Origin: a bacterium
GTDB taxonomy: Bacteria; Myxococcota_A; Bradymonadia; UBA7976; UBA1532
DNA length: 58,689 nucleotides
Direction of reading: 5' to 3'
Assembly: GCA_030426085.1 (NCBI GenBank)
Contig: JAUHYW010000071.1
Location: 1-58,689, forward strand
The position numbers were made by a program, and so were the translations under genes. Each line of letters starts with the position of its first letter. The first letter of the stretch is position 1. The notes under the pieces are model-generated. The model worked only from the letters and a program-made list of their open reading frames with translations. It made no database searches and was not told the origin of the DNA. This document shows, piece by piece, positions 19,782 to 53,878 of this stretch.

Positions 19782-20120
19782 TCACGACCCGGGCTCGGGG
19801 CGGTCGTCGGGTGCGATCAGGCTCGCGATGCCGGCGCCGCCTTCGAGCCAAGGCACCGGGACGCCCATCCGCTCGGCGGCCTGCTCGACGCCGAAGGTGA
19901 CGACCATCTCCCGGATGTACCGGAGCATCACGCGCTCGAGGTCGAACTCGTCCCGGGCCCCGGCCTTCACGAGCTGGGGCAGGCCGCTGTAGCAGTCCAC
20001 GCAGAGCCCGGTCTTCGACCCGAAGCGTAGGCCCTGAACGTTACAGAGCCGGCAGCTCTGCCGTCGGTTCTTGTCGCCCCAAGTGTTGTCTCGATGCTTC
20101 GGCTTGGCGCGGCACGGCAC
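19782..20120 (-). CDS. Zinc-ribbon-like HTH protein (112 aa)
   Basis: The GTG start has GGAAGGAAG ahead. The protein has CRLCN at about 23-27 and CVDCYSG at about 40-46, a four-Cys zinc ribbon. A C-terminal HTH-like segment follows (MVVTFGVEQAAERMGVPVPW). This resembles small phage regulators or intron-encoded-type DNA-binding proteins. Its target is unknown. Confidence 0.6.
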   Translation of the reverse strand: MPCRAKPKHRDNTWGDKNRRQSCRLCNVQGLRFGSKTGLCVDCYSGLPQLVKAGARDEFDLERVMLRYIREMVVTFGVEQAAERMGVPVPWLEGGAGIASLIAPDDRPEPGS

Positions 20121-20216
20121 CGGCCTGCTTCCTTCCCCCGACCGGGATACGATCCCCGAAGCCGGGCAGCCTGTCCACGGACAATCGACTGACGCGATGG
20201 ACTTCGGCTGCGATCG

Positions 20217-20915
20217 TCAGGCGCCTGACGGCCCGCGCTGCTGCGTACGCGTGCTCCACGGCGTCTCGAGGTGCCGGGACAGCAGGCGTCGGACCCCCGG
20301 TCCGAGCAGCCAGGAGGCGGGGGCTGCGAGGACCGGGGGCCCGACGAGGCGGGCGTCGAGCAGACCGTCGATGGTGATGCCCCGGGTGTCGACCCAACCG
20401 CCGGCCTGCTGGGGTACCTCGATCGGAGGGCTCGGGTTGGTGCAGTCGAGCGCGAGGACCGACAGCCGCGAGCCCGGCTGGACGTCGATGGCCCGGGCGT
20501 CGAGGTTGAGGACGCGCAGGCGCAGCCACTCCCCGGGGGCCACGAACACCGGCGCGAGGGGGATCTGGTCGCTCTTCCTGCCGCCGGCGACGTGGGTCCA
20601 CCCGGGCTCGCCCCGCTGGCCGACCTCGAGCTGGGCGATGATCGGGCCGGTGGCGTCGATGTCGGCCGAGGCGACGAGCACGCGACAGGTGCCCCGGCCG
20701 CGGATCATGCCGTCGGAGGCGAGGACCTCGGCGCCGGCGACGAGGCCCTTGTCGAGCTGCACGACGGCCTCGCCGCCGGCCGGGATCTGAATGGGGTCGG
20801 CGGGCCCGAGCACCGCGTGCTGCACGAAGTCGACGCCGTCGGGGGCGGCGTGTGCGACGGCGGCGGCGAGCGTGCCGACCGCGATGAGGGTGAGGGTGAG
20901 GGTGAGGATCTTCAT
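20217..20915 (-). CDS. Secreted or virion-associated beta-rich protein
   Basis: This 232-residue protein has a clear signal peptide (MKILTLTLTLIAVGTLAAAV, cleavage probably after AHA). The rest is beta-rich (EPGWTHVAGGRKSDQIPLAP, EWLRLRVLNLDARAIDVQPG). It lies just after the collagen-like fibre gene and may be a surface or virion protein. The short palindrome GCCGCTGCAGCGGC at 20952-20965 lies in the gap upstream. The family is not recognised. Confidence 0.65.
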   Translation of the reverse strand: MKILTLTLTLIAVGTLAAAVAHAAPDGVDFVQHAVLGPADPIQIPAGGEAVVQLDKGLVAGAEVLASDGMIRGRGTCRVLVASADIDATGPIIAQLEVGQRGEPGWTHVAGGRKSDQIPLAPVFVAPGEWLRLRVLNLDARAIDVQPGSRLSVLALDCTNPSPPIEVPQQAGGWVDTRGITIDGLLDARLVGPPVLAAPASWLLGPGVRRLLSRHLETPWSTRTQQRGPSGA

Positions 20916-20981
20916 GGGTCACTCCTGTCATTGCCCGTGGGCAGTGGATGTGCCGCTGCAGCGGCGTGATGGCGAGGCGTG

Positions 20982-21827
20982 TCAGCGCACGCGCTCGATG
21001 CCGAGGTGGCAGTGGCGGACGTTCCCGTTGTCGTCGTAGCCGAGCAGGGTCCCGGCGTTGCCGCCCGAGTAGAACTTCGTCCGGACCTGGTCGCCGGCGC
21101 TGAGGGTGAGCTTGAACGAGCCGTTGGCCGACCCCACGCCGACGCCCTTGCCGGCCGAGTACTGCGTGACCCAGCCGCCCCCTTCGCCCTCGTCGATCTC
21201 GACGTCGAGCCGGCCGGGGTTCGAGGTGCCCGAGTAGGAGAGGTTGACCACGTAGCGGTAGTCGCCGTCCTCGGGGGCGATGAAGACCCCCGTCGTCGCC
21301 GCATAGTCGTTGCCGACGTCGACGTCCTCGAGGTTGAAGATCACCACCGCGGAGGACCCCCCGCTGACCACCTGATCGCTCTGGAGGTAGGCGCCGACGC
21401 TGCACGACTGGCTGACGTCCTGCCCGTCGGCGCCGGCGGGCCCGGCGGGACCGACCGCGCCGTCCGCGCCGTCCGCGCCGGCGGCACCGGCCGGGCCCTG
21501 CTCGCCGGCGGGGCCTTGGGGCCCGACGGCCATCGGGACGATGCGGTCGTCCAGGTCGCCCTCGGTGAACTCGAGGCTGATCTCCGACGTGTCTTCGGTG
21601 TTGACCGACTTGAGCTGGTACGAGCGGATCGGCCGGCTCGGGGGGCGGCCGATCGTCCGGATGGTCCCGGCGTGGATGAGCACCTGGTCCGACGCGGAGC
21701 CGTTGAACTGGACGATCACCGCCGGCTTGTCGACCGGCACCGACGCGATGAGGCCGAAGGCGGCCGGCGTGATGGTCGTCGGCTCCTCGGGGAAGGCGAT
21801 GGGGGCTTCGGTGGTCGGGATGGGCAT
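20982..21827 (-). CDS. Collagen-like fibre with C1q/TNF-like C-terminal domain
   Basis: In this 281-residue protein residues 1-98 form a beta-rich base. Residues 102-137 are twelve uninterrupted Gly-X-Y triplets (GPQGPAGEQGPAG and so on). Residues of about 140-281 look like a C1q/TNF-type jelly roll, with the hallmark GVFIAPEDGDYRYVVNLSYSG split over 180-200. Such proteins trimerise. In phage PRD1 the spike P5 has the same base-collagen-TNF-like order, and in other phages similar fibres bind hosts. It is likely a receptor-binding or surface fibre. The C1q-like call needs structure prediction to confirm. Confidence 0.8.
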   Translation of the reverse strand: MPIPTTEAPIAFPEEPTTITPAAFGLIASVPVDKPAVIVQFNGSASDQVLIHAGTIRTIGRPPSRPIRSYQLKSVNTEDTSEISLEFTEGDLDDRIVPMAVGPQGPAGEQGPAGAAGADGADGAVGPAGPAGADGQDVSQSCSVGAYLQSDQVVSGGSSAVVIFNLEDVDVGNDYAATTGVFIAPEDGDYRYVVNLSYSGTSNPGRLDVEIDEGEGGGWVTQYSAGKGVGVGSANGSFKLTLSAGDQVRTKFYSGGNAGTLLGYDDNGNVRHCHLGIERVR

Positions 21828-21837
21828 GGCTGAGTCC

Positions 21838-22791
21838 TCACGCCACCCCGGCTCGCGCCAGGTGACGGTCGATTCGGGTGGCGACGACGCGGTCGACCTT
21901 GGCCCAGGCGGACGGGTCGGCGCCGTCGGTGATGTAGCGGCGGAAGCGGGTCGGCCCGGTGTGCCAGAGGCGGACGCCGCGGGCGGCGTCCCGGTCGGTG
22001 CGACCGGGACGCTTCTTCACGAGGGCCCAGAGCTGGGCGTAGTAGCCGATGGGGAGGGCGACCTCCTGTCGGGCCGTCCAGTCCCAAGGCATCCACTCGG
22101 CCGGGATCTCGGGCGCCCGCAGGCCGAGGTCGTCGAGGGTGTGCAGATCGCGCCCGGCGTCCCGGTTCCACTGGAACACCCCCCAGGCGGTGATGAGCGT
22201 GCCCGAGCGGGGGGCGTCGACGGTCGTGCAGCGGCGCAGGCGGTCGAGGTCGCGGGTGCGGCACGGCACGTTGAAGGTGCGGGCGGGCACGCCGAACGTG
22301 CCGCCCTCGCCCTCGTACTGCGCGAGGTTGACCATGGTCTGCACGAACGCGTCGCCGAGCTGCTGCTCGGCTGCGATTCGGCGGACCACCGGCAGCGCAG
22401 CTCCCCGGGCGGACGCTTCCCGCACCCGGACGGCCGCGACGTCCGTCGGAGCGATGCCGTGGCGCTCCCGGTAGACCCGATTGGCGGTGAGCACCGTCGG
22501 CGCGCTGAACATGCCGTCGATCCGCAGGACGCCGGCGTTCCCGGCGGCGACGACGACGACCCCGGGCAGACCCGGTGGTCGCCGGGCGCCGTGGTGCGGC
22601 CCGAAGGGGGCGCCGGCGTCGGGCATGTAGAGCCCGTCGTAGAACTCGCGGGGCTTCTGACTCGGCGGATGACTCGGGTTCGGGCGCTGCGGCGGGGGTG
22701 GCGCCGCCGCGGAACGCGATGCCAGCGCCTTGCCGACCAGAGCGAGGGTCGCGATCCCCGCGCCGGCGCCGATGACAGTCAGCGGTCGCAC
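21838..22791 (-). CDS. Membrane-anchored lytic-transglycosylase-like protein
   Basis: This 317-residue protein starts at GTG 22791 behind GGAGG, overlapping the previous gene by 13 bases. Residues 4-20 are a hydrophobic anchor and 28-45 a Pro-rich linker. The core has NLAQYEGEGGTFGVPAR (about 155-171, Glu160 or Glu162 as catalytic acid) and TAWGVFQWNRDAGRDL (201-216). These recall the ES and GxxQ motifs of goose-lysozyme-type transglycosylases. It would cut peptidoglycan during entry or release. PRD1 P7 is a functional parallel. Assignment rests on motif spacing, not on a strong family match. Confidence 0.6.
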   Translation of the reverse strand: MRPLTVIGAGAGIATLALVGKALASRSAAAPPPPQRPNPSHPPSQKPREFYDGLYMPDAGAPFGPHHGARRPPGLPGVVVVAAGNAGVLRIDGMFSAPTVLTANRVYRERHGIAPTDVAAVRVREASARGAALPVVRRIAAEQQLGDAFVQTMVNLAQYEGEGGTFGVPARTFNVPCRTRDLDRLRRCTTVDAPRSGTLITAWGVFQWNRDAGRDLHTLDDLGLRAPEIPAEWMPWDWTARQEVALPIGYYAQLWALVKKRPGRTDRDAARGVRLWHTGPTRFRRYITDGADPSAWAKVDRVVATRIDRHLARAGVA

Positions 22792-23126
22792 AGGTCGTCC
22801 TCCGGCAGCTCGCCGCGCTGGATCCACGCGATCTCGAAGTGAGCGCGCACCGGCTTGGGAATCTGTGCGCGGAGTGCCAGGGTGTCGCCGGGCATCGTCA
22901 CGGGCAGCACGACCAGCTCGGGGACCCGATCGATGGCGCCCGACCAGAGCTTGGTGGTGCCCGACGACCCGCGCAGCTCGATGACCGCGGTGGTGGCGTC
23001 GGGGGTCTCGACACTGGCCCGCGCGGTCCAGTGGGAGCCGTTGAAGGGCAGCCGGAAGACGCCCACGTCGACCCAGAATCCATCCGCGGCCTGGCCGGCT
23101 CGGTGCGAGTTCAGGTACGCCCGCAT
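22779..23126 (-). CDS. Small beta-rich protein, candidate minor virion protein (115 aa)
   Basis: A beta-rich protein (ADGFWVDVGVFRLPFNGSHW, VPELVVLPVTMPGDTLALRA, VRAHFEIAWIQRG) with little helix, of a size for a single jelly roll. Its start codon overlaps the upstream stop (TGATG). Adjacency to the 305-aa protein and the 127-aa protein suggests a structural set such as penton or minor capsid proteins. That is inference. No family is recognised. Confidence 0.55.
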   Translation of the reverse strand: MRAYLNSHRAGQAADGFWVDVGVFRLPFNGSHWTARASVETPDATTAVIELRGSSGTTKLWSGAIDRVPELVVLPVTMPGDTLALRAQIPKPVRAHFEIAWIQRGELPEDDLCDR

Positions 23127-23509
23127 CAGCAGACCGCTCGGGCGAAGAAGATGAGCTCGACGGAGAAGTCCTGGAGGCCCTCGAGGCGCCTGACCTCCAC
23201 CGTGTACTTCGAGCCGGCCTTGAGCTTGAGCCCCGTGAAGGCGCAGGGGTCGTTCGGCCGCTCGTCGGGGGTGACGAGCGTGTGCAGGGGCGGCCAGAGG
23301 TCGGTGCTCTCGTCGAGCGGCGACCAGTACGCCGCCTCGCCGCCCGTGCCGGTCGAGCGGAAGTTGAGCCGGCAGACGCGCAGCCCGGCCGGATCCCGCG
23401 TGTACGCCCGCACCCGCTCGATTACGATGTCCTCGGGCACCGTCATCGTCGCCCTGCCGGTCTCGCCGTTGGCGGTGATGACGAGCGGGTGGGAGGCGTT
23501 GGTGAGCAT
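23126..23509 (-). CDS. Small beta-rich protein, candidate structural protein (127 aa)
   Basis: It begins MLTNASHPLVITANGETGRA and is dominated by beta strands (DIVIERVRAYTRDPAG, CRLNFRSTGTGG, KYTVEVRRLEGLQDFSVELI). It could be a jelly-roll fold. It lies directly between the 305-aa capsid candidate and the 115-aa protein with no spare sequence. Its function is unassigned. Confidence 0.55.
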   Translation of the reverse strand: MLTNASHPLVITANGETGRATMTVPEDIVIERVRAYTRDPAGLRVCRLNFRSTGTGGEAAYWSPLDESTDLWPPLHTLVTPDERPNDPCAFTGLKLKAGSKYTVEVRRLEGLQDFSVELIFFARAVC

Positions 23510-23559
23510 GGATCAGGCTCCGGGTGCAGGCTGAGGGACTCGGACTCGGGTCGGGTGGC

Positions 23560-24477
23560 TCAGCGACCGCCCATGCGCTGGTAGTGCTCGCCGCGCAGCA
23601 TGATGCGCATGCGGCACTTCTTGACCAGCTCGAGCGTCGGGTCGGGGAACTCGATCTGCATCTCGTGGCCCTTCTCGCCCCCCTTGAGGGTGAAGAGCGC
23701 GCTCTTGGAGCGGAACGGGCGACCGGTGAACCGCACCCCGCGCTCGTCGCCACCGCCGGCGGCGGTGATGACGCCCCCGGTCGGGGGGCAGTCGGCGACC
23801 CGGGTGAGCTGCACCACCAGCGCGCCGTTGCCGACCGACCAGCGGAGCTGCGCGTCGCCGAGCAGGCGCAGATCGGCGGGGTTCATCTCGGTGCGGTCCT
23901 GCGTGGTCAGGTCGACATCGACCCCGTGGCAGATGAAGGTCGACCCGTCGGGCATCGCGCCGCCGCTGATCAGGTTGGTGCGGTGGTCGTCGATCGGCGT
24001 GTCGCTGCCGTAGGGCCCCCCGTCGTCGTCGATGCCCTTGTGGAACGCCTTGACCATCCGGATGGTCTGGCCGCTCATCGCCCGGATCGAGGTCGTGAGG
24101 GGGCCGTCGTCGAAGTCGAGCACCGCGAAGACGGGCGCCGGCGTCTTGGACCGGCCGATGACATCGGCCTTGGTGACGCGCGCCGCCTTGGGCATGTAGT
24201 GGGACGCGCACACCTGCCGCCGGACGGGCTGCTTCTTCGCGACCTTGCGGACGAGCACGCCCGCCCGCTTCTGGTTGTTCAGCTTGCGCTGCCACTGCTG
24301 GATGATGCGGGGGCCGTTCGGCGCCTTCTTCACCGTCGCCTTGTTCTTCAGGAGGAAGGCGCCCAGTTCGTCTTCGTCTCGCTGGATCTCATCCCACAGC
24401 GGCCCGAGGCGCTCGATGAGGTCCGCGTCGTCCTCGATGATCAGGTAGGGATCGGGGTGGTATTCTTCGTTGTCCAT
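23560..24477 (-). CDS. Candidate major capsid protein (305 aa)
   Basis: The acidic N-terminus (MDNEEYHPDPYLIIEDDADL) and a basic helical region (WQRKLNNQKRAGVLVRKVAK) lead into a long beta-rich C-terminal half with many short strands (STFICHGVDVDLTTQD, GALVVQLTRVADCPPTG, KSALFTLKGGEKGHEMQIEF). The ATG has GGAGACATCCG ahead. Length and composition are compatible with a double jelly-roll coat protein (PM2 and FLiP coat proteins are near this size). Gene order next to small beta proteins, membrane proteins and a fibre supports a structural role. No homology is visible by eye, so the call is a hypothesis. Confidence 0.4.
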   Translation of the reverse strand: MDNEEYHPDPYLIIEDDADLIERLGPLWDEIQRDEDELGAFLLKNKATVKKAPNGPRIIQQWQRKLNNQKRAGVLVRKVAKKQPVRRQVCASHYMPKAARVTKADVIGRSKTPAPVFAVLDFDDGPLTTSIRAMSGQTIRMVKAFHKGIDDDGGPYGSDTPIDDHRTNLISGGAMPDGSTFICHGVDVDLTTQDRTEMNPADLRLLGDAQLRWSVGNGALVVQLTRVADCPPTGGVITAAGGGDERGVRFTGRPFRSKSALFTLKGGEKGHEMQIEFPDPTLELVKKCRMRIMLRGEHYQRMGGR

Positions 24478-24572
24478 CGGATGTCTCCGTTTCGGTGTCA
24501 CGGGGGGTCGACCCCCGAGTCGATCCATCGGGTCGAGGCCCATGGCCTCGCGGTCGAGGCGCGCAGCCCCGG

Positions 24573-25280
24573 TCAGAACTCGAGGTCGTCGAGGTCGTCG
24601 TACTCGTCGTTGTCGTCGTCGGGGTCACCGAAGGGGACGAGGCCGCCGACGTCCGCCGCCGCCTCGTCCGCCTGCATGGCCTTCTCCTCGGCCATGCGCC
24701 GCAGCTCGGTGGCCGCGCGGCGGATGTCGTCGTCGAGCAGCTCGTCGAGCTGCTCCAGCTCCTTGCTCGACGCCTTCGCGAGCGCCTTGCTCGCCCCACC
24801 GTCGAGCAGGCCCTTCAGCTCGTCGAGGCCCCGGACCGCGCCCTGCTCCTTGGCGAACGCCCCCTGGGTCAGCACGACCACGGCGATGGTGAAGGCGCCG
24901 ATGGCCGCGGCTTCGAGCGCGCAGGCGGTCTTGTAGTCGCCGTGCTTGCGCCGGCTGCGGGCCAGCAGGCCGGCGGCGAAGAAGTAGGCGAGCAGCAGCG
25001 TGGCCTTCTGCCCGGGCGAGAGCTTCGCGTACCACTGGACCTTGCCCGCCCGGGCCATGCCTTCCAGCGTGCCGATGCCCACCGCGGTGATGCCGGCGCC
25101 GGCCATCGAGAGGCCGATGCGCAGCGCTTCGGGCTGATCGTTGCCCCCGTTGGCCAGCACGAGGGTGGACTTCTTGCCCCCCTTGGCCCGGCCGGGGCGG
25201 TCGAGGGAGCGGGTGGAAGCGGTGGGCATGTCGTCCTCCTCGGACGGATTGCTGATGACGGTGAACAGGTCGGAGTTCAT
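24573..25280 (-). CDS. Membrane protein with C-terminal GLVPFGD tag (235 aa)
   Basis: Three hydrophobic segments are visible: about 53-72 (IGLSMAGAGITAVGIGTLEG), 91-108 (ATLLLAYFFAAGLLA) and 122-142 (ALEAAAIGAFTIAVVVLTQG). A coiled-coil-like region follows (about 150-205). The acidic tail contains GGLVPFGDPDDDNDEYDD, sharing GLVPFGD plus acidic residues with the four repeats of the 41552-42481 protein. It is a probable inner-membrane or virion-membrane protein. An operator-like palindrome lies upstream (25423-25440). Confidence 0.7.
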   Translation of the reverse strand: MNSDLFTVISNPSEEDDMPTASTRSLDRPGRAKGGKKSTLVLANGGNDQPEALRIGLSMAGAGITAVGIGTLEGMARAGKVQWYAKLSPGQKATLLLAYFFAAGLLARSRRKHGDYKTACALEAAAIGAFTIAVVVLTQGAFAKEQGAVRGLDELKGLLDGGASKALAKASSKELEQLDELLDDDIRRAATELRRMAEEKAMQADEAAADVGGLVPFGDPDDDNDEYDDLDDLEF

Positions 25281-25422
25281 CGGCCGCCCTCCCGAGGGGA
25301 GGGGCCGGTGCTCGCGACGCTGCCCGGAGGTGCGAGGAGCAGGCGCTCGAAGGCGCGTCGGGGGATGTGAGCGGCTGGCTTCAAGCGCCTGCTCCTCTGT
25401 GGGTTACGGAGCAAGCGTCCAA

Positions 25423-25445
25423 CTGCGCGTCGACGCGCAGTCCAA
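25423..25445 (-). promoter_or_regulatory. Palindromic promoter element, copy 1
   Basis: The perfect palindrome CTGCGCGTCGACGCGCAG (25423-25440) is flanked on the minus strand by TTGGAC and an upstream A tract (GACGAAAAACCC), and TTGGAC recurs on its far side. It lies 143 bases before the start at 25280. The same 18 bases occur at 43021 and 43805, each close to a gene start. It is likely an operator or activator site inside a promoter. Confidence 0.6.
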
Positions 25446-25475
25446 GGGTTTTTCGTCCGATCCGGACTTTTTTTC

Positions 25476-25829
25476 TCAGGGCTCGATCGGGTGAGGCGGG
25501 TAGGTCGTGTCGAGCATGTGATCGGTGGTCCAGTCGAGGCGCTGGATGGCTCGCTCGGTGGCCTTACGGGCGGCGGTGGACTCGTGGATGGCGCGCTCGA
25601 CGGCTGCCTGCGAGTCGGCGACGGTGGCCCGCACTCTGTGCTCGGAGCGGATGAGCGCCGACTCGATGCGGGCCTCCACGCCGGCGAGGGCTTCGCGCAG
25701 TTGGCCGATGGCGGCGCGGCATGCCGCGAGCTGGGCGACCACGCGCCCCGCCCAGAACACCATCGTGACGAGCACGGCGGTGTTGACCAGGAGGGCGACG
25801 ACCATCGCCAGCCGCAGCAGCGCGTCCAT
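25476..25829 (-). CDS. Single-span membrane coiled-coil protein (117 aa)
   Basis: A hydrophobic segment at about 5-27 (LRLAMVVALLVNTAVLVTMV) is followed by a long amphipathic helix (about 30-100) with repeated Ala/Glu/Arg heptads (AACRAAIGQLREALAGVEAR). It resembles small spanin- or spacer-like membrane proteins. Its exact role is unknown. The ATG overlaps the stop of the giant gene (TGATG). Confidence 0.6.
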   Translation of the reverse strand: MDALLRLAMVVALLVNTAVLVTMVFWAGRVVAQLAACRAAIGQLREALAGVEARIESALIRSEHRVRATVADSQAAVERAIHESTAARKATERAIQRLDWTTDHMLDTTYPPHPIEP

Positions 25830-37800: not shown

Positions 37801-40594
37801 AGAGCTGCGCGGCCGGCCAGGTGCCGCTGCTGCGCTTCCCCTTCACGCAGCCGATCAGGACGTGGGTCGGCTCGCCCGGGTCGGCCGAGGTCTCCCACCC
37901 GTCGGGGAAGACGACCGGCAGCTCGACGCCGGCGGCCCGACGGCGCTCGAGGAAGGCCCGCACCTCGGCGATGTCTCCGCTGAACTCCTGGTAGAGCTGG
38001 GCGAAGGCGCCGTCCGGCATCTTGGTCTCGGCCGGAAGCAGCGCCACCGACCACCCGTCGGCCTTCCAGGGGGTGACGTTCAGCGCGAGGATGCCCCGCT
38101 CGGGATCGCGCTGCTTGCGACCCTTCAAGGCCCGCTTCGCCGCGGACCCGGCCTCCTTCTCGGACGCCGGCTCCCGCCGGCGGTAGGTGAGCCAGGTGAC
38201 GGGACGGCCCCGGTGCAGCAACGCCCAGCGCCCGCGCCCGGTCGGCTCACGCCCGGAGCTGGTCTTCGGCGCAGACCGCTCCGGTGCTCTGCCGCCCGTG
38301 GCAGCGCTGCCCTTGCCTGCGCTACCCGTCGCGGCGTCGTCGCTCTCGGCGAGCGGCGTCAGGCCGAGGCGCTCCACCATGTCGGCCAGGAGCACGCTGG
38401 CCCGGGTGAAGGGCCCGTGGCGGGTCGCCTCGATGCCCCGACCCCCCTGCATCCAGTGGATCCCGTCGTGCTCCGCGATGACCTGGACCATGAGACCCCG
38501 GCGACGCGACTCGCAGTCGGTGACCCACAAGGCCGCCGCCAGCGGGCCGAAGTTGGTGCAGCCGTACCGGCGCAGCTCGTGGCCCAGCCACTCATGGTCG
38601 AAGGCATCCGTGCGCTCCGGAGCCCGTTCGAAGTTCGCGTCGGCCAGACGTCCGGTCAGCTCGGCGAGCCATGGGTCGGAGCCCTCGATCTCGCGTTCGA
38701 CCCGGCCATACTCGACGCGCCAGCGAGCGTCGGCGATCCGCTCGGCGAGCAGCGGCACGAGCGCGATCGGGCTCAGGTCGACGAAGTCGCCCACGTCGAT
38801 GAAGCGCCGCGCGGCCCCGAGCAGCCGCCTGGCCCGCGCCTGGGCCGCGAGGCCCACGGGGCTCAGCGCGCCACCGCCCACCGCCGGATCGCCGACGTCG
38901 GGCGCCGGGGCGAGGTCCTGACCGGCCGCTTCGGCGACCGCGCCGCGGCCGACGGCGTACGACATGGGCCCGCCCATGATGCGCCACAGCCGATCGTGCA
39001 CACCGCGGCGCAGCACGAACCAGCCACGACGGGACCGAACCAGGGCCAGGGCGCCCTTCGGACCGAGGTACAGCCCGTCCTCGCGACGGGTCATATCCCG
39101 GAACGACACCGGCCGGCCCTGCTCGGGCGCGTCGACCGGCGGCAGATCGGCCAGCTCGCCGAGCACGATCACCCTGTTGCTGACCAGCAGCACCCGCTCG
39201 ACGGGGCGGTCGGCGCGCCGCGCCCGCTCCATCAACGTTTCTGCTCGGCTGCGCTGGGCGCTCGTCCCGCGCCCTCGCCCGGGCTGCACGACGAACACGG
39301 TCCACGGCGGGCCGCCCTCGAGCGTCCCGATCATCTGAGCGATGTCCCGGCCTCGGAACCGCTGCGACAGGTGGACCACGCCGTGCCCGGCGCGGGTGGC
39401 ATACACCCCGGCGTCGCGAGGAATCCGGCTGACGAAGCGGCCGATGGTGAGATCGATTGCGTCCGCGGTGTCGGAGATGGCTCGCTCGGCGCTGGAACGC
39501 GCGGCCTTCTTCTTCGCCCGGGCCGCCTTGAAGGTCGCTTGTGCGTCCGCCTTCGCGGCGGCCTTCTTCGCCGCGGCGGTCTTCTTCACTGCGGCGGTCT
39601 TCTTCACTGCGGCGGTCTTCTTCGCCGCGGCGGTCTTCTTCGCCGCGGCTGGCTCGGGGGGCTTCGTCGAGCAGGGCGGGACGGCCAGCGTAGTCTTGCG
39701 GAACCGCCCATCGGGCAGCTCTGCGACGGCCCCGCGCTCCACCATCATCGCCGCCATCCGCCGCGTGTGCCCGGCGTGCCGATGGCACGCGCTGGTCTGG
39801 AGCTGGATCAGGTCGAAGATGTCGGGCACCCGGCTGAGCACCTCTCGTTGGCGGGGGGTCGGCGCACGCCCGTTCTCCCGGATCGGCTGGAACTCGGCGA
39901 TCACCGACGCGTCGAGCCCCCGCAGGTGGGCGCCTTCGACGACAGCCGCCCGCGCCACGGTCGGCAGTGCGCCCGCGGCGATGAGACCGACCTCGACCTC
40001 TCGCATGAGCCCCACCTCGGCCCGGGCAGAGCGCCCCCGTCGCGACCGGCGCCCGTGGAAGAACTCCATGATGCGACGCGCCCGGCCGGCGAGGGTCAGC
40101 CCGAGGCGCCCCGTCAGCTCGCCCGGGGTGAGGGGGTCGTCGGTGAAGAAGTCGTGACCACGGACGTGCGCCCATCCGCCGCGGGGGCGCCGGCGGATCT
40201 CCACTTCGGGGACCGCCCCGCCACCGTCCGACAGGGCCTCGCCGGGCTCGAGCTTCAGCACCGCCGCGCACAGCTCGGGGTCCTCGATGTTCGCCTCGCG
40301 GAACGCGGTGAACGATGACTCCCACTCGACGCCGTCCGGCCCGTAGCCGCGCAGCCTGTCGGCTGTGTCGCCCTGCGGCAACCAGACCCGGCCCCACCCT
40401 TGCGCCGGCCGGCGCTGGATGGTCAGGGCGCCGACGCGAAGGGAGCCGCCCGGAGGCAAGCGCCAGACGCGTCCCCCCAGGGCCTCGTCGTGGCGCTGGA
40501 CGAACTGCGCGATCGACAGCTCGAAGACCATCGAGCCGCGCTCGAAGCCGCGGAGCATATCGATGGCATCGGCCGGGGCAGTCTCTCGTGTCAT
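25829..40594 (-). CDS. Giant polyvalent methyltransferase-helicase protein (4,921 aa)
   Basis: A single 14.8-kb frame starts at ATG 40594, overlapping the upstream stop (ATGA). Recognisable parts: a Lys/Ala linker near 310-345; a DUF6884-like domain at about 905-1050 (LIGCVKGKRSSG, ...GVIGPDEQVKPYE); an N6-adenine methylase at about 2190-2480 with SGWGGL, EPSAGVGRF and LSNPPYGPRG; and an SF2/SNF2-type helicase at about 3860-4480 with GVGVGKT, VDEAQNY, LLSATPAKN and QRNGRGVRQG. Such fusions are phage and plasmid polyvalent proteins (P1 DarB is an example) thought to be packaged or injected to counter host restriction. Long linkers of simple repeats separate the domains. Much of the rest is unassigned. 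Confidence 0.85.
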   Translation of the reverse strand: MTRETAPADAIDMLRGFERGSMVFELSIAQFVQRHDEALGGRVWRLPPGGSLRVGALTIQRRPAQGWGRVWLPQGDTADRLRGYGPDGVEWESSFTAFREANIEDPELCAAVLKLEPGEALSDGGGAVPEVEIRRRPRGGWAHVRGHDFFTDDPLTPGELTGRLGLTLAGRARRIMEFFHGRRSRRGRSARAEVGLMREVEVGLIAAGALPTVARAAVVEGAHLRGLDASVIAEFQPIRENGRAPTPRQREVLSRVPDIFDLIQLQTSACHRHAGHTRRMAAMMVERGAVAELPDGRFRKTTLAVPPCSTKPPEPAAAKKTAAAKKTAAVKKTAAVKKTAAAKKAAAKADAQATFKAARAKKKAARSSAERAISDTADAIDLTIGRFVSRIPRDAGVYATRAGHGVVHLSQRFRGRDIAQMIGTLEGGPPWTVFVVQPGRGRGTSAQRSRAETLMERARRADRPVERVLLVSNRVIVLGELADLPPVDAPEQGRPVSFRDMTRREDGLYLGPKGALALVRSRRGWFVLRRGVHDRLWRIMGGPMSYAVGRGAVAEAAGQDLAPAPDVGDPAVGGGALSPVGLAAQARARRLLGAARRFIDVGDFVDLSPIALVPLLAERIADARWRVEYGRVEREIEGSDPWLAELTGRLADANFERAPERTDAFDHEWLGHELRRYGCTNFGPLAAALWVTDCESRRRGLMVQVIAEHDGIHWMQGGRGIEATRHGPFTRASVLLADMVERLGLTPLAESDDAATGSAGKGSAATGGRAPERSAPKTSSGREPTGRGRWALLHRGRPVTWLTYRRREPASEKEAGSAAKRALKGRKQRDPERGILALNVTPWKADGWSVALLPAETKMPDGAFAQLYQEFSGDIAEVRAFLERRRAAGVELPVVFPDGWETSADPGEPTHVLIGCVKGKRSSGTWPAAQLYTGKLWSLRHDYARARGLPWGIVSAALGVIGPDEQVKPYEQRIEDHTAERRRVWQMQAQRQLERLFGKGAVVEVLAGRKYVEALAVPARALGITLLAPAAGKGLGARKQWLAERIGELTDRAGRSDASSGGAGGRRTRTPSMPSGRSGSPVTPSLQGRPGSGSPPRAPQPKRDDPATPLARQLPFVDVGEPPADLADTALLAWKVRRAAELLGRPTRGVWVVCGREVHPIGELPAGLDASLPAVFVDMSGAGQVDAVQQDGGFLLAVEPVDEALKRARLALTEDQRAALLDAIRHARGEGRGSHQVKTLLRRPFRRERVIGDREVWVDGYNTMSWATRRNASDIQVVDGFFDQLALQLTEALPAEARIRARQVLTRAFRAARRSPKAAPKGFVRPEPASGSSPASGSSPAPASGSSPASGSSPASGSSPASGSSPASGSSPASGSSPASGSPASGSSPAFDDPRRLRSQDLAFHAERSTNHDQALDLFVEAAGLEQAVALDVPVDKPRTRSTLGISAVSLWLRAARPVQAMSLAARLLADPEGLTPQARVKLAAQYEEAKGFSRRTGHPGPGGYGYGIVVKVTISDAGRRSGAVRYETYTPEGGGTGGTAKTIGSAVGQALVAAGLWGTDTPIAIRRERVHSSGPAETKVWDTDAAAPTDHRGRPLRLGHMPEPKTKPPARPKRDDPATARRAKRDDPATQGASSPVKRDDAATGGPSAAAKRDDPETGGSSRPVKRDDAATAYEMVAGKHTRHGHPIWTVRIVGRRVSDDRFGELRELAKAVADRAGAVKTGYYSTYARKGAVPGFIFGSEREAQQFLARARGTEDDGEDEPGARPQGRVVFTTAEDDYDYPTTRELGRFDLAGRTWRRVELTCPARAGAQLDRYFSGMRAVHDEDPRVAGFIRAIDGAVRAGGGEVWVAPDGKHGTMLPPADARWIRISGRRVETMDERVPKARGAKGEIAAALVDAGASRPDRVGAEGAAALEAITAGMQIAKRPELPLSRIFGDPAVGVDWLAPDRFLLHSPGDNTGVEVHRRGEGDWVPVSALDGSTDRRALMADLEGRWIPAIRRWLVEGELPTRRTERYAGGGMRELGLPDAEALAEVITELRGRLGSGVKVFGYQPHLGRAHDAGFEGFGKGRRVGSILAKLLLHKGGGPWWVVAFGERAPGAKEREKARSLVDAGALTGCAIERVLLVVGDDVHDLLGPEAAHRRSRASDADDWPEEPQQPRARLAANVAAIRIAARARAAGERPAGEQRRRILQYSGWGGLDIGKVRGDWPEGVPLPHSRALVHEYYTPWRVCADIARVARELVEPATTRAVIRALEPSAGVGRFVHAAAFPNWRWTAVELSPLSHLILSQTVRPGDTTHESSFEAFVQAHGDDRFDVILSNPPYGPRGEQLVEDEDRRFRVKAAYQYFILRGLTLLRPGGVAAFLVPGGFMTGSGTRKLRARVTESADLVGAFRLPNGLFPGARLSLDAVFLRARSGAAVQDTAFLDGEYFNKHPTHVLGEIKPSGRWGHPEVIGEYPGMPSLAGSSSSTSGSSSTSGSSSTSGSSSTSGSSSTSGSSSTSGSSSSGSRLSAADFDAAFDTTEPFQSLAALRSAALAAQNHGKAFKPGLVPSASRRAWKAAVDDVVYSTRTKKRRLAYLREALADLRGAANKANSYWQNKTFVRDGLTGAEAQGLVLRLRAGRDAIAAGLKRVETRRKLPKVDQRAPNFGQLLARFADEPWSRLASLGEWETLRVSAERPAVWDGSVRDLERHRWIRVVAAAPDGIHVRLTDSGRANIEARPPQRRAPARPSVSGTVQQTVVVDSDVPSPQEDGRPQGLLGTALLLLDGGSVEEAFANLVADGVSPEHAAEAVGTALSHKTGAPMDIAAFADDLRARMAGSADRGPRRANVPTGSAALEHDPGFPPGIGVFARGPDGILPLGAEGLRMKHGDLHLAGLNVDGIMQVLAARGGTWDIVLRLATREAAAVTLDSTTRERFARTAQRHGAGLGQITVEAGTPDAQGNYAKVEGIGLPPPTLPPMDGRPVRPEDVVKRAKRFVGTDRFEGVWRHHRHLLATNGRQLVIWPAQQGPMTFLGTDGQRVPGWSSAEQVVVADYLWEWLGREGEGRARIPTRALRRALKGVKGTVLLRVRSGHLCLETEPAEGVGWDAHDQQTYLAPAEGPDLVFGIKTAQLRSTAARVAHVDLQLLRPEDRLPGSSSLRWAGAAWFDRPDGERQLIMSMRVFDSTIRALDQRPIKDAPSASGSGSSASSSSPAPSNSSTSRPAATRVGKKGAAILETLTEGMRGPDRAELVAYRRLGEPGAALMPLSIDRLGEDRFALAHNYVQNGDVIADPDVELVRMPDGAWFPLAIQQQGSYHRHADSPEDVRNKSGQRDLARFVGQTWMPDIRSTHLDGGALPARRVERLLDGTERELGEAPAPSRPPRGLQAVEMEDDRPVRGKRRGRALPASLKAVDMEPERVSLDAAIEIAVDDRGGRRVVTAAGKPHDVDYPEPAEMLPVDDPVAVIDPAPLDAAERILRRVTCDPADIVIRGGAVMLAGQPWEGAVVGPRSIDGRWCASLHRLRPALLGATGSGRILLGTPGAPMVIERGGERHVIRPADAPCVVCPTPTAPSAAEPQEAPEAPARGPSEAELATMLSERVAQFRSADARLQGRLHPELAAALDAFEAVFGRRLARIDRPAVEQPAAVRGDAGVRAMLVQHPAGVPVSRVADADGLLARGWCLDGDRLLPRADYLSGDLWARLERLSDVPAAFRHVVDAQTEVLEAAIGPVEYPFIADRVGLRDGWVPLNVVGAYLGTLRTSESKRGNPVPLARRDGVVQIARDFTYEALVHRLSNRSKIRLAIGYINHDDQVFKPAVTHRQKGSIQEKRRIVAEELELGFRAFLATRTDMQERVADAYRRAHHGFVPRTYPGDPLGLDRWGPQITPHPHQNAGARRAVDQRGMVAAYGVGVGKTFTACATVALARQDAGTRRPVILVPNSLVSKWQRDIRKALPDFAVVTIGEKSWRGRDGKLRFGPDDKAEREEKWRRFAAGLYDLALVTPAAFLRTRLTPDEFEALAAGATELQRAVRLAQRNARGRNNPTPRQQAVLEQGVRAFLAEMMELPEKWAPDDVRWSELGVDLLIVDEAQNYKGLHSPETRDGSVPRFMGQSAPSKRAWNLDARARDVRGRGGFVVLLSATPAKNSPLELYNLWSYVNGELWRDHGIHDPEAFISRFCRIEQRMVIDARMEAAMRPSVVGFQRLDELKAILLRWGEFIQPPDIGLEVPEPTVELVEVDMDEGQEAKYGRYVRNIEAALQDPDSRNRVLGLLARMALVAVHAGMDLGLSYKSAGQSREDPSSPKFEAIADYILANLTCGHIVFLQAIAGHRWLHDTLVRRGVRADRIGVLNGELAKSSDARQRIADRFNAGELDVVIANSIAYEGLDLQVRTCAIHHADLPWEPATLNQRNGRGVRQGNTLGTVALRYYFAKRSMDGLRFNLIQGKQGWMRALLEGSDAIANPGADLELGPDEILLLISRTPEQTARRLEAMKAAFEAKRKDKELERVNRLLELGASLLRNAVVVAARSDGDRVGRLRAEAAQALDALDAVEPEIWPWRDLLRAARAAGADDILDRPGSPPLFPGVWLRHRRAWFEVGRFHWMGPDRKVQLRAAGEAIWVTHTADTVAKDVAPEDISVDVPAGMTDDWQQALRDVVDTIGMEWRGWGQVGWNYANPAWLEAAWAAAGPDIERVVAKLQGSKYGGRYKAAETLYPFDVAGVVHIQTAGGPPPEGARLLPPTAEGYARWLQLSVPDEFKHLARRDAASKWWWGLPLPRGVQKRLKNNPSKTARTEMRTNPPGTVAMRLPPEIPVDSHLVLGLDPQGTVAFLEPAGGAREAQRLEKSVPRELPTALIVRVDNTARKAKGRRCAPAPTTVGEPAALKKGAAVLLAVDSGNRLCEVRPAADLPSAYRAERRISKSYPRVVVGEIRHRYTAAID
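33066..33195 (-). repeat. 18-bp minisatellite encoding GSSSTS
   Basis: About six to seven units of GACGTCGACGAGCTGCCC (read on the + strand) run in frame through the giant gene just after the methylase domain and encode repeated SSSTSG. It acts as a flexible linker, and its copy number is probably variable. Confidence 0.8.
35577..37340. repeat. Dispersed 21-bp repeat family inside the giant gene
   Basis: Copies related to GTTGCAGGGTCGTCCCGCTT start at 35577, 35619, 35661, 35703, 35736 and 37272 on the + strand. An inverted copy lies at 37324-37340. Direct copies encode KRDDPAT, KRDDAAT or KRDDPET in the protein. The inverted copy reads LQGRPG and pairs with the copy at 37272 as a 17-bp inverted repeat. 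The 42-base and 33-base spacings keep the frame. Confidence 0.7.
36427..36620 (-). repeat. 18-bp minisatellite encoding GSSPAS
   Basis: About ten units of GACGCCGGCGAGCTGCCC, with two shortened or hybrid units, encode repeated SGSSPA in the giant protein near residues 1325-1390. The unit differs from the 33-kb tract by only a few bases, so the two linkers share an origin. Confidence 0.8.
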
Positions 40595-41037
40595 CGTCGG
40601 ATCCCGTGCTCGTCGATGAAGAAGGCGCTGCGCCGCCGCTCGATCCGGCCGTCGACCAGATGGGGCCGGGCGCCGAGGAACCGGTGCCGCCAGTGGGCCT
40701 CGGTGGCGTCCTTGCGGGTGTCGTAGGTGATCGCTTCGATGGCCCCGGGCGGGGCCTCGCTGTGCACGCCGCCCTCGGCGACGAGGTAGAGCTCGGTGAG
40801 CTCGACATCGGCCGCCAGCCACACCGGGCCGCCCTCGGGCACGACGACCCGCCCGCCGGACAGCTCGATGCGCACCAGGCGCCCCAGCTCGACCAGCTCG
40901 GCGGGCGCGAGCGGCGGGCGCACCACATCGACCGAGCGGAAGGGCTCGACCCCCCAATGCAGGGCGGTGACGGCCCGCCGGGCCCGGGCGCTGATGCGGC
41001 GCCCGGTCGCCCGAGCTGCTGGGCAACGGGGCCTCAC
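40591..41037 (-). CDS. Hypothetical beta-rich protein (148 aa)
   Basis: The GTG start overlaps the upstream TGA (GTGA). After a basic N-terminus the protein is beta-rich (SVDVVRPPLAPAELVELGRL, IELSGGRVVVPEGGPVWL, LYLVAEGGVHSEAPPG). It is not recognised. It is coupled to the giant gene through ATGA and may be an assembly partner or chaperone for it. Confidence 0.6.
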   Translation of the reverse strand: MRPRCPAARATGRRISARARRAVTALHWGVEPFRSVDVVRPPLAPAELVELGRLVRIELSGGRVVVPEGGPVWLAADVELTELYLVAEGGVHSEAPPGAIEAITYDTRKDATEAHWRHRFLGARPHLVDGRIERRRSAFFIDEHGIRR

Positions 41038-41555
41038 GCCGCGCGTGCCTTGTAGAACTGGTGCGCTCCGATGCCGAGCACCACCGGCACCGCGATCCAC
41101 TTCCAGTTCGGGCCGCTGGGCTTCTCGTTGGGATCGAGCCGGCTGGCGACACCGGCCAGGGCCTTCGCCACCTCGGGATCCTTGGCCTCGCGGGCCTCCT
41201 TGCCGATCGCCTCGACCAGCTTGGCCTTGGCCAAGAGGACCCGCTCCTCCTCGTTGCTGATCCAGGCGCCGACGGTGGCCACCGTCACCGCGACCCCGGC
41301 GCCGACCAACGCGAGGTTGAGCGCGCCCAGCTCGCCCCGCGGCTTCGCGGGCAGCGTGTTGGGCAGCTTGTCGATCCCGCCGAGGTAGATGTCGACGACC
41401 TCGTACATCCAGTCTCGGACCCGCAGCGCCGCCTTCCGGCGGTCGAGCGCGAGGCGCACGCCCTGCCTGTTGAGCTGGTGCCAGTCGAGCGCGAGGGCGT
41501 TGAGCCGCATGATCCAGTCGTGGACCTTGGCCCGCCATTCGTCCTGCCAGCTCAT
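41034..41555 (-). CDS. Membrane protein with two spans (173 aa)
   Basis: A Trp-rich N-terminal helix (MSWQDEWRAKVHDWIMRL) precedes spans at about 78-97 (ALNLALVGAGVAVTVATVGA) and about 150-166 (WKWIAVPVVLGIGAHQF). A charged helix lies between. It belongs to a run of membrane proteins and overlaps both neighbours (ATGA and GTGA). It may be a virion-membrane protein, with unknown function. Confidence 0.65.
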   Translation of the reverse strand: MSWQDEWRAKVHDWIMRLNALALDWHQLNRQGVRLALDRRKAALRVRDWMYEVVDIYLGGIDKLPNTLPAKPRGELGALNLALVGAGVAVTVATVGAWISNEEERVLLAKAKLVEAIGKEAREAKDPEVAKALAGVASRLDPNEKPSGPNWKWIAVPVVLGIGAHQFYKARAA

Positions 41556-42481
41556 GCCGCCCGCCCACGGCGCGCCCGCGCCCGCTTGCGGAGGTAGAGC
41601 GCGGCGCCGGTGCCCACCCCGGCGACGGCGACGCCGCCGCCGATCCAGTACATCCGGCGACGGCGCTTCGCCTCCTCCTCTTCGCGCCGCGCCCGCTCGG
41701 CCTCGACCGCCTTCTTCTCCTCACGCAGACGCCGGAACTCGTCCTGCCGGCGGCGCTCCTCTTCTTCCCGCCGCCGCTGCTCCTGCTCCCGCTGGAGACG
41801 GAGCAGCTCGACCTCGGCCGCCGACGCCTGGCGCTTCGTGCTCTCGGCCTGCCACTTGGCCTCGTCCTTCGCGATCACCCGGGCGAGGTAGCCGCGGGCG
41901 TACTTCAGGCAGTTGCCGGTGGCGCCGGGGATCCTCTTGTTCTGGGCCCACTGCCGCCGGGTCTCGGGCGTCGCGTTGAGGATCTTGCTCCGGTACTTCT
42001 TGCGGTTCTTCCCCGAGCACGCGTCGAACCCGATCCACGACGTGAAGTCGTTGAGCAGGCTGCTGACGTCGATCCCGACGGCGTCCGCCAGGCCGACCGC
42101 GAGACCCACGTACGGGTTGCCGGTCGCGGCGCCCGCCGCGAGCCCGGCGCCGGCGGACGAGACCAGATCGCCCACCTCGGCGGCCTCTTCGCCGAAGGGC
42201 ACGAGGCCGGCCAGCTCGTCGTCGAGATCGTCGTCGCCGAAGGGGACCAGGCCGGCCAGCTCGTCGTCGTGGTCGTCGTCGCCGAAGGGCACGAGGCCGG
42301 CCAGCTCGTCGTCGTGGTCGTCGGCGGCGGGGAAGGGGACCAGGCCCGCCAGTTCGACGTCGTCGAAGCCCTCTTCGAAGGCGGGCAGCCCGAGGGTGCT
42401 GGCGCCGCCCGGGTACACGCTCCCGGGATCCGGCTGGTGGTAGGTCAGGAAGCCGAGGTCGCCCCCGCAGGTGCACGGCAT
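41552..42481 (-). CDS. Membrane protein with four acidic GLVPF repeats (309 aa)
   Basis: The N-terminus has MPCTCGGD. Four units of the form DDELAGLVPFGDDDHD follow, with GLVPF at 46-50, 62-66, 77-81 and 92-96. Next come a Gly/Ala-rich segment (about 107-135), a charged coiled coil (about 205-275) and a C-terminal span (about 277-293, YWIGGGVAVAGVGTGAALYL). The GLVPFGD tag also ends the 24573-25280 protein. The ATG has GGAGTTGACCC ahead. The repeats look like docking peptides, but their partner is unknown. Confidence 0.7.
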   Translation of the reverse strand: MPCTCGGDLGFLTYHQPDPGSVYPGGASTLGLPAFEEGFDDVELAGLVPFPAADDHDDELAGLVPFGDDDHDDELAGLVPFGDDDLDDELAGLVPFGEEAAEVGDLVSSAGAGLAAGAATGNPYVGLAVGLADAVGIDVSSLLNDFTSWIGFDACSGKNRKKYRSKILNATPETRRQWAQNKRIPGATGNCLKYARGYLARVIAKDEAKWQAESTKRQASAAEVELLRLQREQEQRRREEEERRRQDEFRRLREEKKAVEAERARREEEEAKRRRRMYWIGGGVAVAGVGTGAALYLRKRARARRGRAA

Positions 42482-42491
42482 GGGTCAACTC

Positions 42492-43004
42492 CTATTGGAT
42501 GGTCAGGCCGCCCCGGATGGCCGCCACCGGCGACACCCCGAATCGGATCTGGGGATGAACGGTCTCGGCATCGACCCACCGGCCGGCGAGACGCACCTGC
42601 GTCCAGATGTGGAAGGCACGGCCGGGCGGACGCGAGCCCGAGCCGGTATCGGAGAAGTAGCGGCCGTCGTCGGTGCGCCGCAGCAGCACCCCCCGCGTCT
42701 CGAAGCCGACTCCGCGGAGCAGCGCCGAGAGCAGGATGTGCTGGTCGTCGCAGTCGCCCATCCGCCGGCGGATCGTCGTCGCCGGCGTCTGCAACTGCTC
42801 GCCGACCTCGGGCTGGAACGTGATCCGGCGGCGCACGAACCCCCACAACGCCCGGGCGGTGCCCTCCCGGTCGTTGCCGTCTACCCCCCGCAGCACGAGC
42901 GCGAGCACGTCGCGCCACAGCGGGTGCCGGGCGTACCGGTCGGCGAGCGCATCGCACCGGGCGCGCGTGCGGTCGGGCGTCTTGCCGGGGAGGCGGAAGT
43001 ACAT
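42492..43004 (-). CDS. Transglutaminase-like cysteine protease/transferase (170 aa)
   Basis: A transglutaminase-like core is recognisable: Cys85 in RMGDCDDQHILLSALLRGVG, His132 in FHIWTQV and Asp145 in RWVDAE form the expected Cys-His-Asp triad. The ATG lies 17 bases past a palindromic promoter element (43021-43038), implying a very short leader. Enzymes of this fold act as proteases, acyltransferases or cross-linkers. Here it may process or cross-link structural proteins or the repetitive giant protein, which is inference from context. Confidence 0.7.
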   Translation of the reverse strand: MYFRLPGKTPDRTRARCDALADRYARHPLWRDVLALVLRGVDGNDREGTARALWGFVRRRITFQPEVGEQLQTPATTIRRRMGDCDDQHILLSALLRGVGFETRGVLLRRTDDGRYFSDTGSGSRPPGRAFHIWTQVRLAGRWVDAETVHPQIRFGVSPVAAIRGGLTIQ

Positions 43005-43020
43005 GCGGCTGACGGTGCAA

Positions 43021-43043
43021 CTGCGCGTCGACGCGCAGTCCAA
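43021..43043 (-). promoter_or_regulatory. Palindromic promoter element, copy 2
   Basis: CTGCGCGTCGACGCGCAG at 43021-43038 is preceded on the minus strand by AAAAAAACCG and TTGGAC and followed by TTGCAC. It sits 17 bases upstream of the transglutaminase-like start. If TTGGAC is a -35 box, the palindrome fills the 17-bp spacer. Confidence 0.6.
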
Positions 43044-43077
43044 CGGTTTTTTTGCCGCGGCCTACGGCGCGCCCGGA

Positions 43078-43779
43078 TCAGTCGTCATCGTCCTTGCTGA
43101 ACATCCGCACGGTGTTGCGGATCGACCCGATCGCGTCGTCCATCGCGCCGAGCGCGTCGATGGGGCTGAAGTCCGCGTCCTGGAGCTTCTTGCGCGCCCC
43201 CTCCAACTCGTTCTGTGCGTCGTGCAGGCTGTCGCGCAGCTCGTCGCGCTGGCCCTCGAGTTCGGCGATCCGGGCTTCGAGCCCCGCGACTCTGGTGGAC
43301 GCCGCGGCCTCCTCGACCGACTTGTCGCGCAGCGCCGTCTGGAGGGTCTCGATCGTGCTCTGGTAGGCGCCGTTCGCCTTCTCGAGCGTCTCCACCTGCC
43401 GCTGAAGGAGATCTTCGACCGCGGAGCGATCGGGCTGGACGCGAGGCGCGTACTCCAACGGCTCCGGGGATCGACGCCCGCGACGGGGCCGCATCAGGCG
43501 GTCTTGCGCCTTGAAGATCGTCCCGTCCGCGTTCCGCGCGATGATGCGATACCGCCCGGGCATGCAGATCTGGTCTTGCAGGTCGTGCACCCGGTCAGTC
43601 GCCAGCAGCATGATCGGGTGGCCGTTCTCGTCGGTCGCATCCTCGGGTACCGACGTGGTGCCTCGCTTGCGGTTTGCGGTGTCGAAGCGCACGAACTGCA
43701 CTTCGAGCAGGTCACACGGAACGCGCGCCTCCAGGAGCGGGGCGTAGTGCATCTCGGTCTCGTCTTCGATTCGGCTCAT
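43078..43779 (-). CDS. Coiled-coil protein at the head of the late-type block (233 aa)
   Basis: The N-terminal half is beta-rich (PCDLLEVQFVRFDTANRK, HPIMLLATDRVHDLQDQ, GRYRIIARNADG). Residues of about 118-205 form a long coiled coil (LLQRQVETLEKANGAYQSTI onwards), and the C-terminus is acidic. The ATG has GGAGGTGCCC ahead. An upstream GTG at 43791 is a weaker start. It is the first gene of the block and has a palindromic element 26 bases upstream. The shape would suit a scaffold or structural protein. Confidence 0.65.
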   Translation of the reverse strand: MSRIEDETEMHYAPLLEARVPCDLLEVQFVRFDTANRKRGTTSVPEDATDENGHPIMLLATDRVHDLQDQICMPGRYRIIARNADGTIFKAQDRLMRPRRGRRSPEPLEYAPRVQPDRSAVEDLLQRQVETLEKANGAYQSTIETLQTALRDKSVEEAAASTRVAGLEARIAELEGQRDELRDSLHDAQNELEGARKKLQDADFSPIDALGAMDDAIGSIRNTVRMFSKDDDD

Positions 43780-43804
43780 GGGCACCTCCACCCCCCGAAT
43801 CGCA

Positions 43805-43827: not shown

Positions 43828-43860
43828 ACGAAAGTGCCGCCCGGCCGGCGATCAGCCAGG

Positions 43861-43989
43861 AACTCACCAGCAACCCGACCACGAACTCGCCAGCAACCCG
43901 ACCACGAACTCGCCAGCAACCCGACCACGAACCCGCCATCAACCCAGCCAAGAACTCACCAGCAACCCGACCACGAACTCACCAGCAAA
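43861..43989. repeat. Tandem 23-bp repeats (iteron-like)
   Basis: Five full units and a partial sixth start at 43861, 43884, 43907, 43930, 43953 and 43976. Units begin AACTCRCCAGCAACC and end GACCACG, and unit 4 is divergent. There are no spacers, and no protein is convincingly encoded. They lie between the late-type block and the Septu-like genes. The 23-bp spacing (about two helical turns) is typical of iterons bound by a Rep protein. Confidence 0.75.
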
Positions 43990-49291: not shown

Positions 49292-49361
49292 CGGTGGCTA
49301 CCATTCGGCAGAAGAATGGCTAGAAACTTCTTGCGCGTCGGTGGTTGCCCCGTAAGACCTC

Positions 49362-53870: not shown

Positions 53871-53878
53871 GAGGGGCA

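Follow-up and report, generated by a model that had tools for sequence, protein, structure and literature searches.

A probable temperate tailless virus, distantly related to Salisaeta icosahedral phage 1, integrated at a tRNA-Phe gene of a Myxococcota genome

The 58,689-bp stretch of bacterial DNA analysed here (the window) is the whole of C165, one of 178 contigs that make up a genome of 10.1 Mb, and its positions 76-46353 very probably constitute a temperate tailless virus that is integrated at tRNA-Phe, is a distant relative of Salisaeta icosahedral phage 1 (SSIP-1), and represents a new lineage. A preliminary description, made from the letters of the sequence, had singled out the block 19782-43779 as the possible virion module of a tailless, membrane-containing virus without recognised relatives, with 23560-24477 encoding its coat. 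An integrated tailless virus with this coat remains the best reading, in view of the coat model, the attachment (att) sites, related elements that are complete and carry phage-type early genes, the presence of the module in a complete circular genome, and homology and synteny with SSIP-1. The block is not, however, the extent of the element. A 53-bp direct repeat, 100% identical between 76-128 and 46301-46353 (plus strand), forms its left and right att sites; the repeat is the 3' half of tRNA-Phe, of which an intact copy lies on another contig of the same genome (G000:C46). The 46.2 kb between the repeats is one complete integrative element, and what the preliminary description called element B is therefore its late half.

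SSIP-1 is described as an isolated tailless membrane phage with a genome of 43.8 kb, a diameter of about 100 nm, T=49 symmetry and two coat types (PMC6356626, PMC6260650), and one passage states that its genome 'hardly shares any similarity' with GenBank (PMC6356626). Its late genes run in the order gp33 (coiled coil), gp34 (a transglutaminase-like protein annotated 'structural protein'), transmembrane (TM) proteins, gp40, gp41, gp42, gp43 (2319 aa, also annotated 'structural protein') and gp44, after which come proteins of 210-256 aa. A profile of the Myxococcota transglutaminase-like proteins matched gp34 (97.8%, 8.8e-13), and the element's own member aligned with gp34 at Z 20.9. As in SSIP-1, this gene adjoins one for a coiled-coil protein, whose family has gp33 as its best match, on weaker evidence than that for the transglutaminase; the product of the small gene g40591 has gp41 as best, though insignificant, match. 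Between the TM and coat genes lies a giant protein with a methylase domain, which blastp relates to gp43 at 2e-8 in a common domain and at 2e-4 in the methylase; the virion annotation exists for gp43 only. On these sequence comparisons, homology plus synteny, the element is distantly related to SSIP-1, and the view that it lacks recognised relatives no longer holds. Nor is it too large for such a virus, as had been feared: the SSIP-1 genome shows that 44-46 kb is not excessive. It is assigned to a new lineage because it has no gp40, its coat is unrelated by sequence, its giant is far larger, and its lifestyle is integrative.

A search of IMG/VR with the transglutaminase profile found a bridge that coat queries had missed, the contig L094 (IMGVR_UViG_3300027760_000117), whose 16,483 bp end in a 99-bp terminal repeat and are therefore a complete circular genome. 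It encodes a coiled-coil protein, a transglutaminase-like protein, TM proteins, proteins of 381 and 195 aa, a basic TM protein of 221 aa, a coat of 234 aa, proteins of 156 and 153 aa, and a lytic enzyme, and the order departs little from that of the element's module. Homology is certain for the transglutaminase (3.5e-22), moderate for the protein encoded from 41034 (7e-5) and individually weak for the other genes; the syntenic partner was the best match for 6 of 11 proteins (permutation p = 5e-5 without the transglutaminase). The L094 transglutaminase matches SSIP-1 gp34 at 7e-12, and no other L094 protein gave a significant match in the comparison with SSIP-1. Six relatives of L094 were found (L095-L100), the seven ranging from 16.5 to 19 kb, and L096 carries a gpA-type rolling-circle Rep (phrog_91, 7e-164). 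Coat comparisons gave Z 11.3 for a sister locus of the element and Z 6.2 for the element's own protein against L097.

Some ten divergent loci in Myxococcota, nearly all from one bacterial family, contain the module; genome searches with the 305-aa coat candidate gave clear homologues only in that family, and a weak one in another (G077). Comparison of gene order in related genomes, proposed in the preliminary description, supports its reading, since most genes of the block keep their order in independent loci at identities of about 20-68%. The order is coiled coil, transglutaminase-like protein, TM proteins, g40591, either the giant or a basic protein of 140-290 aa, and the TM protein encoded at 24573; then the 305-aa protein, the products of 23126 and 22779, the transglycosylase, the C1q fibre and the product of 19782. 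C89 has the giant and C84 its end, while C25, C98, C59, C15 and C278 are without it, which leaves a core module of about 10 kb. Two of these loci are complete elements, C98 (18131-44538, 26.3 kb, with att repeats sharing the same tRNA-Phe core) and C25 (79086-109948, 30.8 kb, att-bounded), which encode integrase, primase, Cro/C1 repressors, ImmA and a methylase. The lineage seems to reach well beyond the host's bacterial family. In remoter Myxococcota loci (L087-L093; G326, G167, G124, G308, G141, G293) a transglutaminase gene stands beside coiled-coil-type genes, in some with proteins of 950-1545 aa and in one (G293) with a gp40-like ATPase. In a genome of another bacterial family, a region (L050, G077:C108, 12800-20700) encodes a coat-like protein of 306 aa together with small TM proteins and what may be a lytic enzyme; it is perhaps a sister lineage. 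The host genome itself has a further transglutaminase fragment (G000:C154:707-889, E 2.8e-17), possibly from a second related provirus.

The candidate major coat (305 aa; 23560-24477, minus strand), which is homologous to the coat of the circular viral genomes, was modelled with AlphaFold2 from an alignment of six sequences only. The model has a helical N-terminus (residues 11-92) and a beta domain (102-305), with a mean predicted local distance difference test score (pLDDT) of 59.9. The closest alignments of the beta domain are to PRD1 P3 (Z 5.8) and to satellite panicum mosaic virus (Z 5.7); coats of nodavirus, picornavirus and calicivirus align as well (Z about 5-5.8 overall), all values below the Z of 8 under which likeness may reflect merely a common arrangement. 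Most top rows of a Foldseek search against the PDB were virus coats, none significant singly (best E 0.015). The neighbouring gene at 23126-23509 (minus strand), with syntenic homologues, encodes a second beta-sandwich protein, a candidate minor capsid or vertex protein, whose AlphaFold2 model (pLDDT 64.9) has mixed structural neighbours. Structure prediction and fold search thus returned a jelly-roll-like and a beta-sandwich model, both at low confidence; they back the coat role and do not decide it. The preliminary description had thought of PM2 and FLiP, and here its proposal needs amendment: the coat looks like a single jelly roll, a double one being judged unlikely because the beta domain has only about 200 aa; its match to PRD1 P3 covers one stretch. 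Profile comparison with PM2, FLiP, P23-77 and IN93 likewise brought no convincing similarity, the lone match (45.6%, the 41034 protein against PM2 P1) being at a non-syntenic gene. Sequence-profile searches of the PDB with the coat, the 23126 protein and the transglycosylase found no significant relative, and coat searches gave no matches, either in GenBank phages or, starting from single sequences or small alignments, in IMG/VR. A weak coat match in G284:C18 was set aside, as no other module gene lies nearby.

The genes listed in the preliminary description are real: all are on the minus strand, their coding signal is strong (GC content at third codon positions mostly 0.89-0.97), and most have syntenic homologues. 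The list omitted the small gene 40591-41037 and the largest of all, the open reading frame (ORF) 25829-40597. The latter encodes the giant, of 4922 aa counted from the first ATG within a longer ORF, with DUF6884, N6-adenine methylase, DUF6908 and SNF2-type helicase domains and a C-terminal module domain; its PHROG matches are DarB-like (phrog_11801, 1.7e-156; phrog_10089, 2.5e-68). In C25 the giant's position is taken by a small protein that is homologous, over its last 125 residues, to the C-termini of all three giants (Z 6.8, 4.2 and 7.0, no other stretch being as high). By this homology, the giant joins a DarB-like protein to a domain of a module protein. In the small proteins of other compact loci, likeness to the giant C-terminus is weak or absent. 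The DarB protein of phage P1 is carried in the particle, injected, and protects incoming DNA; DarB-like giants occur also outside phages. Since its counterpart gp43 is annotated as a virion protein, the giant is part of the module and probably enters the particle, and the simplest reading is that it would be loaded into the virion through its C-terminal domain and then injected, like P1 DarB.

The transglutaminase-like cysteine protein (42492-43043, minus strand; Pfam 1e-11) is a candidate assembly or maturation protein. Basic proteins of the module are strongly enriched in [KR]xNP motifs (7 in L094 against 0.12 expected, 3 in C98 against 0.04), similar motifs precede the C-terminal domain of the giants and occur in SSIP-1 gp41-gp44, and the family alignment of the transglutaminase has an invariant Cys98/His145. 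Given the motif enrichment and these residues, a role for this protein in processing is a reasonable idea. The enrichment was also noted in module proteins of L025 (C59), and the motif is a possible processing or sorting site.

No terminase, portal, HK97 coat or tail gene was found in the element with Pfam or PHROGs, which bears out the preliminary description on this point, and none of these is among the commonest 25 families listed for C25 and C98 in the same two databases. PHROG tail and tail-fibre matches of the C1q protein are due to its collagen repeat and mark no tail gene. A Walker-A scan of the three complete elements (this one, C98 and C25) disclosed no FtsK/HerA-like motor, so that the absence of a packaging ATPase, remarked on in the preliminary description, is confirmed and is a real difference from SSIP-1. 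The only P-loops of the element are those of a DnaC-like protein and of Septu, comparison with gp40 gave Z of -0.3 and 2.9, and no credible Walker-A protein is encoded in the complete L094 genome. A gp40 homologue (Z 10) does stand beside the transglutaminase gene in the Myxococcota locus G293:C41, not in the element.

The remaining genes of the late block all lie on the minus strand. At 20982-21827 is a collagen and C1q-like fibre (Pfam Collagen 3.2e-6, C1q 5.4e-5; syntenic homologues), whose profile matches C1q structures at 5.7e-9 and which is probably the receptor-binding spike. The product of 21838-22827 is lytic-transglycosylase-like, with an N-terminal hydrophobic segment; it has no Pfam match, while its family alignment keeps a conserved Glu and an SLT-like motif, and the gene is syntenic. 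Small module proteins are encoded at 19782-20120 (kept at the same module end in four loci), 22779-23126 (syntenic homologues in six other loci) and 40591-41037 (in eight loci; this gene precedes the giant). Single-TM proteins are predicted at 24573-25280 (conserved in the module), 25476-25829 (not conserved among the other modules compared), 41034-41555 (syntenic) and 41552-42481. The last has four acidic GLVPF repeats and the first one such motif; in sister loci the same proteins bear other acidic LG-rich tails. The coiled-coil protein (43078-43791) is the gp33 counterpart by synteny and profile.

From left to right the element holds PD-Lambda-5, integrase, helix-turn-helix (HTH), winged-helix and DnaC-like loader genes, small genes, an ECF-sigma-like gene, the late block and Septu. 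Its tyrosine integrase (2987-4090, minus; Pfam Phage_integrase 6.2e-18) lies near the left att site. The product of 4581-5948 (minus) is probably the replication initiator, judging from its position beside the helicase loader and from weak MarR/Crp winged-helix matches. The DnaC/IstB-like loader (6153-7451, minus; Pfam IstB 3.5e-10) is supported by a PHROG of DnaC-like loaders, present at 2.5e-29 among A10 members. Upstream of the late block is an ECF-sigma-like regulator (14402-15358, minus; Pfam Sigma70_ECF 4.8e-6), a candidate late regulator whose homologues flank the module just outside in C84 and C89. Accessory defence cargo occupies both ends, just inside the att sites and in DNA of lower GC: PD-Lambda-5 A/B (247-2941, plus; PADLOC 8.7e-102 and 9.3e-111) and the different system Septu PtuB/PtuA (44027-46176, minus; PADLOC 2.2e-44 and 6.2e-116). 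A 23-bp tandem repeat (5.8 copies, 43856-43988) separates the module from the Septu genes. At the right att site a second tRNA-Phe element begins (46301-58689), with HTH, Replic_Relax and TraD-like (51606-53870) genes; its integrase (46201-47685) reads across the att site, a tandem integration at one tRNA.

A life cycle can be proposed from these parts. On induction the integrase would excise a circle, the DnaC-type loader would recruit the host helicase, and the late block would be transcribed from right to left. The 23560 protein would then build an icosahedral shell around a membrane bearing the small TM proteins, with the transglutaminase-like protein acting in assembly or maturation. Because there is no viral ATPase, the genome might be loaded by a host motor, or the shell assembled around condensed DNA. 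The giant would be packaged through its C-terminal module domain. At infection the C1q spike would attach to the host, the transglycosylase open the wall, and the injected giant protect or remodel the incoming DNA, like P1 DarB.

Several points weigh against a virus of this kind. Neither particle, induction nor membrane has been observed; formation of virions is inferred, and their membrane content is suggested by the TM proteins and the analogy with SSIP-1. The coat model is of low confidence, and its fold Z of 5-6 may reflect a common arrangement. Direct coat similarity between the element and L094 is weak (Z 2.7), and neither profiles nor blastp relate the coat to SSIP-1 gp45-gp47. There is no packaging ATPase, though SSIP-1 has one predicted (PMC4124505). 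This absence would suit a defective or domesticated remnant, its genes intact-looking, that has lost its motor and no longer makes particles, the more so as the gp40-type ATPase of SSIP-1 has a homologue beside the G293 transglutaminase; yet all module ORFs are open, the att repeats are identical, and the same ATPase-less design recurs in C25, C98 and the complete circular L094, so that a remnant is improbable. It would suit equally a satellite or phage-inducible element with coat-like proteins of its own, packaged by a helper phage, which would also lack a terminase and for which defence cargo at both ends is a habit. Against it, the element encodes a fibre, a lytic enzyme, membrane proteins and a giant virion-type protein of its own; moreover, the same module occurs in a free genome that is circular and complete, and it is similar to the late region of an isolated, autonomous virus, and we think a satellite no more probable than a remnant.

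An integrative conjugative or mobilisable element, with the membrane and collagen-like proteins forming a surface or transfer apparatus and the giant as the anti-restriction protein usual in such elements, could draw on the many membrane proteins and on the occurrence of DarB-like giants outside phages. Pfam and PHROGs reveal no relaxase, coupling protein or type IV secretion system within 76-46353, as the preliminary description had it, and both the transglutaminase and the giant have matches among the SSIP-1 virion genes. The idea was dropped because the TraD-like and Replic_Relax genes belong only to the neighbouring element, and it is very improbable indeed.

If the contig harbours an integrated tailless virus, SSIP-1, hitherto an orphan, gains a lineage of integrated Myxococcota relatives and a complete circular genome with metagenomic relatives, and the common core points to which genes build the particle. 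A bolder proposal, which we advance tentatively, is of a family-level or higher new Myxococcota lineage of SSIP-1-related temperate tailless dsDNA viruses that encapsidate 26-46 kb without a virus-encoded packaging ATPase, some carrying in the virion a methylase-helicase of nearly 5000 residues, targeted by its C-terminal domain and injected with the genome. Two questions thereby become testable: by what means a large tailless virus that has no recognisable packaging motor fills its shell, and whether a tailless particle can hold and inject a protein of about 500 kDa. The transglutaminase-like and coat profiles are tools for finding proviruses that Pfam, PHROGs and NCBIfam leave unlabelled. 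No description of such proviruses was met in the literature searched, which did not cover most subscription journals.

Among known systems, P23-77 and IN93 (Matsushitaviridae, Halopanivirales, Singelaviria) are likewise tailless, with an internal membrane, lytic enzymes and coats (173 and 291 aa) of the single jelly-roll type. Singelaviria typically have two vertical single jelly-roll coats; the 23560 and 23126 proteins model, at low confidence, as jelly-roll-like and as a beta sandwich. P23-77 and IN93 encode a packaging ATPase, the FtsK/HerA type of which is absent from the element, and no structural protein shows convincing profile similarity. PM2, FLiP and PRD1 share with it small membrane proteins and, in PRD1, a collagen-like spike, and FLiP also has no packaging ATPase (PMC5894146), but their coats are double rolls, for which the element's beta domain of about 200 aa is too short. 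P1 DarB and the DarB-like giants of PHROGs have the same N6-methylase and SNF2 helicase architecture, whereas the element's giant is fused to a C-terminal domain common with a small module protein. L094-L100 have in common with the element the syntenic module, a homologous transglutaminase and coat, and, in L094, the want of a credible Walker-A ATPase; they differ in their small genomes and in having neither giant nor C1q fibre. The closest likeness is to SSIP-1, which has coiled-coil, transglutaminase-like, TM and small proteins, a methylase giant, a TM protein, coat-type proteins and a lytic enzyme in the same order, a genome of similar size, and [KRE]xNP motifs in its module proteins. It differs in its predicted ATPase gp40 (PMC4124505), in coat-type proteins of 210-256 aa without detectable similarity to 23560, and in a giant of 2319 rather than 4922 aa; and whereas SSIP-1 is an isolated virus of Salisaeta, its relative here is integrated and has two defence islands just within its att sites.

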